A stretch of DNA of 64,000 nt, taken from the NCBI RefSeq assembly GCF_000797495.1, contig NZ_JTGN01000004.1, forward strand, positions 463,017 through 527,016. The letters run 5' to 3'. Position 1 is the first letter of the stretch, and every line of letters begins with the position of its first letter. Below, piece by piece: positions 59,423 through 61,118 of this stretch. The notes below the pieces were generated by a model that saw only the letters and a program-made list of their open reading frames with translations, searched no databases and was not told the DNA's origin. The DNA is from Robinsoniella peoriensis (GTDB lineage Bacteria > Bacillota > Clostridia > Lachnospirales > Lachnospiraceae). The translations under genes and the position numbers were made by a program.

Positions 59423-60874
59423 ATGGGATTTCCAAAAGATTTTATGTGGGGCGGCGCTACGGCAGCCAACCAATGTGAGGGTGGTATCCTGGAAGGTGGA
59501 AGAGGTGCCGCTAATGTAGATGTGTGTCCGGCCGGCAAAGACAGAAATGCTGTTATTACCGGACATCTGAAGATGCTCGAGATGGATGATGTACATAGCT
59601 ATCCCGCAGCGGAGGCGATTGATTTATACCATCATTTCAAGGAGGATATCCGGCTTTTTGGTGAAATGGGATTTCGGGTATACCGCTTAAGTATTGCCTG
59701 GACCAGAATATTTCCAAAGGGCGATGAAGAAGAACCAAATGAAGAAGGCCTGGGATTTTATGAAGAAATTTTTAAGGAATGCCAAAAGTATCAGATACAG
59801 CCGCTGGTAACCATTTCTCATTTTGATTGTCCCATCTGGCTGATCCAAAAATACGGCGGATGGCGCAGCAGAGGGCTCATTGATTTTTATCTGCATCTTT
59901 GCGAAGTGCTGTTTACCCGTTTTCGGGAATATGTGACTTACTGGCTGACATTCAATGAAATTAATATGATTCTCCATGCTCCGTTTATGGGTGCAGGGAT
60001 TTATTTTGAAGAAGGCGATAATGAAGAACAGATTAAGTACCAGGCCGCTCATCATGAATTGATAGCCAGCGCCCTTGCCACCAGAATGGCACATGAAATC
60101 AATCCGGAAAATAAAATAGGATGTATGTTTGCGGCAGGAAGTGCCTATCCTTATACCTGTAAACCGGAAGATGTATGGGAGGCTTTGCTTACAGATCAGG
60201 AAAATTATTTTTTTGTGGATGTTCAGGCAAGGGGATATTATCCGTCCTATGCAGTAAAGCGCCTTCGTAAAAAGGGCATTTTCCCCCTGATAGAAGATGG
60301 GGATGCTGAAATTTTAAAGAAGTATCCGGTGGATTTTATATCCTTTTCATACTATAACAGCAGATGTATCGCAGCACCCGGGGGCGGGCAGGATGAGGCT
60401 GAGGGAAATCTTTTTAAATCAGCTAAGAATCCCTATCTGAAATTCAGTGAATGGGGATGGCCGATTGACCCTCTGGGTCTGCGGATTACTTTAAATCATG
60501 TATATGACCGTTACCAGAAACCACTGTTTATTGTAGAAAACGGGCTGGGAGCTGCCGATGTGCCGGATGAGAACGGATATGTAGAGGATGATTACCGCAT
60601 TGAGTATCTGGATGCACATATCCGCGCTATGATGGCGGCTGTGGAAGAAGATGGTGTGGAACTGATCGGATATACATCCTGGGCACCGGTTGATTTAATC
60701 AGTGCCGGAACCGGTGAGATGAAAAAACGCTATGGATTCATCTATGTAGATAAACAGGATGACGGAAGCGGGACTCTTGCCAGAACAAAGAAAAAATCAT
60801 TTTATTGGTATCAGCGCGTAATAGCGACAAATGGAGAATATTTAAAGGAGGACAAGAACAATGAAGAATTTTAG
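59423..60874 (+). CDS. bglA: 6-phospho-beta-glucosidase, family GH1
   Basis: The 483-residue enzyme hydrolyses the phosphorylated beta-glucoside delivered by the PTS. It opens with [19 protein letters not shown]. The acid/base Glu179 lies in TFNEIN and the nucleophile Glu372 in [11 protein letters not shown]. The tail has [18 protein letters not shown] and the Lys/Ser-rich KKKSFYWY that binds the phosphate in 6-phospho enzymes. GGAGGTGAGG ahead of the ATG overlaps the end of the PTS gene region. HPr follows with a 14-base overlap. The symbol is by function class; several paralogues are usual. Confidence 0.93.
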
Positions 60875-61118
60875 TTATGTAGTCAAGGATGAGGTAGGAA
60901 TTCACGCAAGACCGGCAGGTCTGCTGGTAAAAGAGGCAAAAAAATACGAAAGTAAAATTACGCTGTCAAAAGACGGCAAGTCAGCGGATGCAAATAAACT
61001 GATGGCTGTGATGAGCCTGGGCGTCAAATGCGGGCAGACCGTGGAAATCGTAATTACAGGATCCGACGAAGAAACTGCGTATCAGGGTATGAAAAAATTC
61101 TTTGAAGAAACCTTATAA
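60861..61118 (+). CDS. ptsH: HPr-like phosphocarrier with Lys at position 46
   Basis: The 85-residue HPr has the active His15 in VGIHARPAG, so it can take phosphate from EI. In Firmicutes position 46 is normally the Ser that HPr kinase phosphorylates for catabolite repression (KSIMGVMS). Here that segment reads [10 protein letters not shown] with Lys46. The protein should therefore serve the transport chain but not form the Ser-P co-repressor with CcpA. AAAGGAGG precedes the ATG inside the end of the GH1 gene. EI follows after about 100 bases. It is probably a dedicated copy; a Ser46 HPr is expected elsewhere in the genome. Confidence 0.92.

Follow-up and report, generated by a model that had tools for sequence, protein, structure and literature searches.

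Models of catabolite control in Gram-positive bacteria start from a single HPr with two sites, in which phosphorylation of Ser46 throttles sugar uptake and serves CcpA. Its paralog Crh keeps Ser46, and crh is also found behind whiA in Bacillus. LicT, the antiterminator of beta-glucoside operons, is phosphorylated in Bacillus subtilis by Enzyme I (EI) and HPr. Crh is described as devoid of His15 in PMC3526391, and the reference list of PMC8560693 cites a paper whose title concerns phosphorylation of B. subtilis LicT by EI and HPr. LicT-controlled bgl operons such as licT-bglP of Streptococcus mutans (PMC1489936) carry licT and an RNA antiterminator (RAT) before a beta-glucoside PTS, as does the locus analyzed here.

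This locus lies in a 64-kb stretch of the Robinsoniella peoriensis genome (64,000 nucleotides, hereafter the window) and differs from the described bgl operons in that genes for HPr and EI are appended to it. The encoded HPr has in common with the classical Firmicutes HPr of the B. subtilis ptsH type its profile, its length, His15 within GIHARP and the ptsH-ptsI gene order, but carries Lys46 instead of Ser46 and scores 78.2 bits against a cut-off of 110 bits for the HPr equivalog PRK13780. Relative to Crh it represents the reverse situation, with His15 kept and Ser46 lost.

The operon, its leader and its HPr

The operon is encoded on the forward strand in the order licT-EIIBCA-GH1-HPr-EI, behind a LicT-type leader. 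A promoter-like site, TTGACT-17-TATGAT with TG before the -10 element (56307..56335), matches the consensus at 10 of 12 positions in a consensus scan; since such sites are not in excess in the region (16 found versus 17.0 expected), its position is the main argument for it. Downstream lie a RAT-like antiterminator element, GGATAGTGATTGTGCAGACAAGCTAAACC (56349..56377), recognized by reading the sequence and presumed by us to resemble known RAT sites, which contains a small hairpin (56352-56373) in the predicted fold, and a leader terminator (56374..56441), predicted as a long hairpin with a T run that overlaps the 3′ end of the RAT. The leader (56345-56445) folds at −33.3 kcal/mol compared with −17.97 for shuffled sequences (z −4.82), and its comparison with Rfam gave no credible match, only a chance one to mir-5014 (E 0.64, 19.4 bits versus a gathering score of 101).

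The first gene encodes a LicT antiterminator (56484..57329) with a CAT RNA-binding domain (PF03123) and two PRDs (two stretches of PF00874), which passes the NF046042 cut-off (372 bits versus 300). It is followed by a beta-glucoside PTS EIIBCA (57417..59411; TIGR01995, 712.6 bits versus a cut-off of 614.7), a GH1 6-phospho-beta-glucosidase (59423..60874; NF007158, 843.7 bits versus 639) and HPr (60861..61118), the start of which overlaps the 3′ end of the GH1 gene by 14 nt. EI (61222..62844), which passes the TIGR01417 cut-off (582.1 bits versus 341.7) and contains the three domains PF05524, PF00391 and PF02896, begins with an ATG at 61222 behind AGGAGG, the list of open reading frames having a TTG at 61207 instead. 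The gap between HPr and EI (61119-61206) showed no unusual structure (z −0.59), and the operon is closed by a probable intrinsic terminator (62896..62950) with a T run, 62885-62950 folding at −23.1 kcal/mol (z −4.90).

Translation of 60861-61118 yields a protein of 85 amino acids that exceeds the curated cut-offs of both PF00381 (100.2 bits versus 23) and TIGR01003 (90.9 versus 47.9) and thus belongs to the HPr phosphocarrier family. Its His15 sits in GIHARPAG, so that the GxHxRPA motif of HPr phosphocarriers is present as GIHARPA. Position 46, counted from Met1, is Lys (codon AAA, 60996..60998), the residue being Ser in the classical Firmicutes HPr; it is followed by L47 and falls, gap-free, into the Ser46 column of the profile alignment, and in alignments to four solved HPr sequences the K46-L47 region pairs without gaps with K45-S46-I47 or A-K-S-I. 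An earlier note, made from the letters of the window, had claimed that His15 and its context are intact, that residue 46 is Lys, and that this HPr is encoded with its own EI beside LicT, EIIBCA and GH1; the translation, the alignments and the profile matches bear out each of these points. The window HPr consequently lacks the Ser46 of a classical HPrK-regulated HPr and displays neither of the two features of Crh, absence of His15 and presence of Ser46.

Lys46 is predicted to be unable to accept a seryl phosphate from HPr kinase (HPrK), an expectation supported by the residue itself; since a serine kinase cannot phosphorylate Lys, the His15-phosphate of this carrier should escape being drained by HPrK during fast glycolysis. 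What the arrangement suggests is a ptsH-ptsI pair of the type usual for the family, placed in an inducible beta-glucoside operon. Phosphate from PEP would pass through EI to His15 of HPr and on to EIIBCA, and the imported 6-phospho-beta-glucoside would be cleaved by the GH1 enzyme. The His15-phosphate probably also activates LicT, which would then bind the leader RAT and prevent termination; we infer all these phosphotransfers, and the activation of LicT, from gene content and residues.

Residue 46 in Lachnospiraceae and related families

The survey of relatives was anchored on EI rather than on HPr, which kept the sampling independent of residue 46, and covered 80 Lachnospiraceae genomes, one per genus code and at least 90% complete, including that of the window. 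EI was found in 73 and HPrK in 78 of the 80; such presence counts may be lower bounds, for a control genome of B. subtilis, in which HPrK and WhiA are expected, gave no match to HPrK (PF07475) or WhiA (PF02650). Among 100 EI loci from the family, 99 of which come from the 80 genomes and one from a genome of the same family in the phylum sample (G223), HPr was present in 64, and 36 without HPr nearby were left unclassified. The corresponding 64 HPr rows include one locus with two HPrs, one repeat of the same HPr having been removed. Four rows were dropped, namely two GIHARP proteins farther from EI (L196, Lys46, 973 nt; L240, Ser46, 947 nt), one Ser46 protein with no EI on the same strand (L266) and the second protein of L238, which has Ser46 and no His15.

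The remaining 60 HPrs, all with His15, within 200 nt of EI and distributed over 48 genomes, carry at position 46 Lys (n = 17), Arg (17), Ser (15), Ala (4), Gly (3), Gln (3) or Thr (1); two of them come from the window genome. By genome, 34 of the 48 have only non-Ser, eight only Ser and six both. Lys46 of the window HPr is thus no chance one-off, Lys46 or Arg46 being found again in relatives. The comparison across Lachnospiraceae that the earlier note had named as a check on its reading of a dedicated copy therefore speaks against that reading: loss of Ser46 is common, and it is not a matter of Lys alone, the four other replacements accounting for 11 of the 60. When only the 40 EI-adjacent HPrs with the motif GIH(A/M)RP are considered, Ser is absent altogether (17 Lys, 14 Arg, three Ala, three Gln, two Gly and one Thr); with a cut at 1000 nt, the GIHARP type shows one Ser in 42. 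An HPr with QIHARP beside EI in L246 carries Ser46.

Outside the family, 41 loci of the same phylum were read (29 best-scoring and 12 fetched separately). HPr stands beside EI in 31 of these, with Ser in 28, Lys in one, Arg in one and one unreadable (28 of 30 readable). Five of the Ser46 HPrs from the phylum have GIHARP, and the combination of GIHARP with Ser46 occurs outside the family in L205, L209, L216-L218 and L342, so the motif is a predictor of Ser46 loss in Lachnospiraceae only. A further sample from the class comprised 29 loci, of which L360 and L363 repeat loci already counted; it yielded eight non-Ser and ten Ser HPrs within 200 nt of EI and one Ser farther away, the rest being two unreadable cases, one spurious match and seven loci without HPr. 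Because the eight non-Ser cases span seven family codes, loss of Ser46 reaches beyond Lachnospiraceae.

A profile search of named genomes provided 80 loci encoding an HPr of this type, with Lys in 56, Arg in 18, Gln in four, Gly in one, Asp in one and Ser in none, a count that is not an independent estimate since the search motif, DxxGIHARPA, itself selects the type. For example, the residue is Arg in Blautia schinkii, Lys in Faecalicatena contorta and Gln in Fusicatenibacter saccharivorans. These loci also encode an 81st protein, the second HPr-like one of L158, which combines Ser46 with the absence of His15.

Such diversity could be taken as a sign of relaxed constraint, with HPrK no longer acting on the PTS carriers of the lineage for some other reason and residue 46 having drifted. 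Indeed, the position varies in this HPr type among Lys, Arg, Ala, Gly, Gln and Thr, and also Asp. However, Lys and Arg together make up 31 of the 40 EI-adjacent GIH(A/M)RP proteins and 74 of the 80 from named genomes, so that a basic residue appears to be favoured, and both HPrK and the WhiA-linked Ser46 site described below are retained; we consider drift unlikely. An HPr tree built without column 46 (84 columns, 144 rows) contains five changes between Ser and non-Ser, and its resolution is too low for dating the loss. Among the titles and abstract openings listed from the open-licence literature we found no report of Ser46 loss from ptsH in Lachnospiraceae, nor of a division of the two HPr sites between paralogs, which is weak evidence of novelty.

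Private pair or general carrier

The R. peoriensis genome (7.39 Mb in 32 contigs, 98.3% complete, 6.4% contamination) holds, according to profile searches, nine PF00381 matches, all of which were read, three EIs and one HPrK, the latter with the loop GESGIGKS. Five of the HPrs have His15. Besides the window copy with Lys46, these are a GIHARP protein with Arg46 behind a glucose-type EIICBA (C25:267.8k) and three with Ser46, located behind CdaA-CdaR (C9:283k), before an EI of its own (C24:243k) and between EIIA and EIIBC (C24:465k); by their residues, the last three could both carry phosphate and be switched. A protein behind WhiA (C9:245k) combines Glu15 with Ser46 and fits both residue features of Crh. 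Two short HPr-like proteins (C22:316k and C5:71k) are without the His loop and have the Ser46 stretch, and C32:111k is no recognizable HPr on reading. A second EI, 61% identical to that of the window, is encoded at C24:128k with no HPr adjoining. The second HPr with Ser46 and the second EI that the earlier note had proposed to look for thus both exist, and the window pair is not the sole HPr/EI of the genome.

The C24:465k gene (L018, 6952-7293; His15/Ser46) belongs to another LicT-type PTS operon. The C9:283k gene (L014, 8167-8430), which has GLHLRPAG together with Ser46, lies directly behind the c-di-AMP cyclase genes CdaA-CdaR, and several relatives have HPr genes of its type in the vicinity of CdaA-CdaR.

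A tree of 61 EIs, comprising 58 from the named loci and the three of the genome, places the window EI in a 19-member clade (SH-aLRT 100), the gene neighbours of which include glucose-type EIICBA and other EIIs. The earlier note had proposed that LicT, EIIBCA, GH1, HPr and EI form a transferable unit; of the 80 loci read, three (L097, L098 and L163) contain the set licT-EIIBCA-GH1-HPr at identities of at least 70%, with EI only in L098. L097 is the closest locus read for LicT, EIIBCA and GH1 (77, 78 and 82%, respectively), with HPr following and no EI. All five genes are present in L098 of Lachnospiraceae bacterium A2 (LicT 72%, EIIBCA 75%, GH1 78%, EI 80%). Asp46 is the classical phosphomimetic substitution, and it is this residue that is carried by the HPr of L163 (5860-6255), where the gene set includes HPr and lacks EI.

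These data bear on the possibility that the EI-HPr pair is dedicated to this operon alone and that Ser46 was replaced specifically to free beta-glucoside uptake from catabolite feedback. The three EIs and several HPrs of the genome would suit it, as would the collinear arrangement of HPr and EI with the transporter gene, framed by a single leader and a single terminator, and the related EI at C24:128k, given which the window pair would not have to supply the whole cell. It is nevertheless very improbable, considering that HPrs of this type in the family sample as a rule have a residue other than Ser at position 46, that the window EI clusters with those of other PTS operons, and that the EI of the L098 operon is the only one found in the whole A2 genome, so that the pair cannot be private there. 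Nor do the data support Lys46 as the mark of a dedicated copy, as had been claimed: Ser is missing from all 40 EI-adjacent GIH(A/M)RP proteins, and the genome's second GIHARP HPr carries Arg46 behind a different EII. The private phosphate chain envisaged in the earlier note hence survives in part. The presence of other EIs and HPrs agrees with it, and since the related EI in this genome has no adjoining HPr, a partly dedicated role is possible in R. peoriensis; the sole EI of A2 in the same operon and the mixed EI clade weaken it. For the window itself the outcome is deflationary, loss of Ser46 being a local custom: the special-copy reading largely gives way to a trait common to the family sample, and the interesting part is the proposed separation of the two HPr sites.

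Ser46 paralogs and their possible role in catabolite signalling

WhiA was detected in 77 of the 80 Lachnospiraceae genomes, and the best 30 loci were read, two of which are without an HPr-like gene. All 28 WhiA-linked HPr-like proteins in the others have Ser46 and none has His15, position 15 being occupied by Glu (n = 25), Asp (2) or Asn (1). These mirror images of the carrier, in R. peoriensis and in the family, resemble Crh in that Ser46 is kept and His15 is absent, but differ from it in mostly having Glu15, and the C9:245k protein stays below the cut-off of its best model, PRK13782 (96.1 versus 123 bits), which we take to be the Crh model.

In seven of the 80 genomes no EI match was obtained, and all 15 PF00381 matches of these seven were read; there is no GIHARP HPr among them. 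None of the nine full-length HPr-like proteins has His15 and all nine have Ser46, and the six shorter ones also retain the Ser46 stretch. Five of the nine adjoin WhiA (in G043, G046, G053, G088 and G089); the G004 copy in L378 is counted as full-length and not as WhiA-linked. In all 10 genomes considered beyond the EI-less set (the window genome included, and G011 with EI unassessed; L049, with no CdaR in its stretch, was left out of this count), the CdaR-linked copy carries His15, and in the three EI-less genomes that possess it, it has Gln (G004), Asp (G053) and Gln (G088) at position 15. In this small sample of draft genomes, with EI absence judged by one profile, the pattern supports loss of His15 along with the PTS while Ser46 was kept, and thereby separate functions of the two sites within the same lineage.

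We therefore favour, as the probable explanation of the locus, that its HPr is the usual ptsH-ptsI carrier of Lachnospiraceae, from which Ser46 has mostly been lost, usually to Lys or Arg, and which HPrK would consequently be unable to switch off. HPrK, being retained, probably acts on Ser46 paralogs, namely the WhiA-linked Crh-like protein without His15 and the HPr near CdaA-CdaR, through which catabolite signalling would run; here we infer both the substrate choice of HPrK and the physiological effect from the distribution of residues. A broader proposition, for which we put the chances at about even, is that the two HPr sites may be partitioned over paralogs, with His15-only carriers and Ser46-only WhiA-linked Crh-like signal proteins, both in Lachnospiraceae and in some members of several further families of the class. 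Against such a split stand the 15 of 60 EI-adjacent HPrs of the family that keep Ser46, the eight of 48 genomes that have only such HPrs, the Ser46 proteins of L240 and L246, and the three His15/Ser46 HPrs of R. peoriensis itself. If the split is real, HPrK would no longer feed back on PTS uptake but would still signal to transcription, which would overturn, for a dominant group of intestinal bacteria, the view of catabolite control derived from Bacillus. What is predicted from Bacillus about sugar preference and inducer exclusion would fail to transfer wherever the carrier is not serine-phosphorylatable. The two signals would also reside on separate proteins, each removable alone, which would make for a clean test.

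As regards CcpA, none of the 64 LacI-family matches in the genome reaches the NCBIfam cut-off, the best scoring 197.9 bits versus 442.35 and having His at the position in the MVRPxLTS stretch that is occupied by Arg in the CcpA chains. A motif search of the 20 best LacI-family matches hit this stretch in 13 and a different place in two, the remaining five giving no hit. Within the group of 13, C22:250836 carries the Arg; as the role of this Arg in CcpA is our assumption, the protein is a lead only. With the cre consensus assumed here and up to two mismatches, the window contains no excess of cre-like sites (52 versus 45.1 expected), and between 55126 and 56934 there is none, so that the operon is without the cre-like site near the promoter that would characterize CcpA/cre control.

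A separate observation concerns the short HPr-like proteins, which have no His15 loop and display a conserved (D/N)AKS(I/V/L)(M/L)G at the Ser46 region. Those of R. peoriensis are the C22:316k (L008, L022) and C5:71k (L009, L023) proteins, and the same type is present in six of the seven Lachnospiraceae genomes without detected EI (L375, L379, L380, L381, L382 and L383). Judging from this motif, they possibly constitute a further family resembling HPrK targets.
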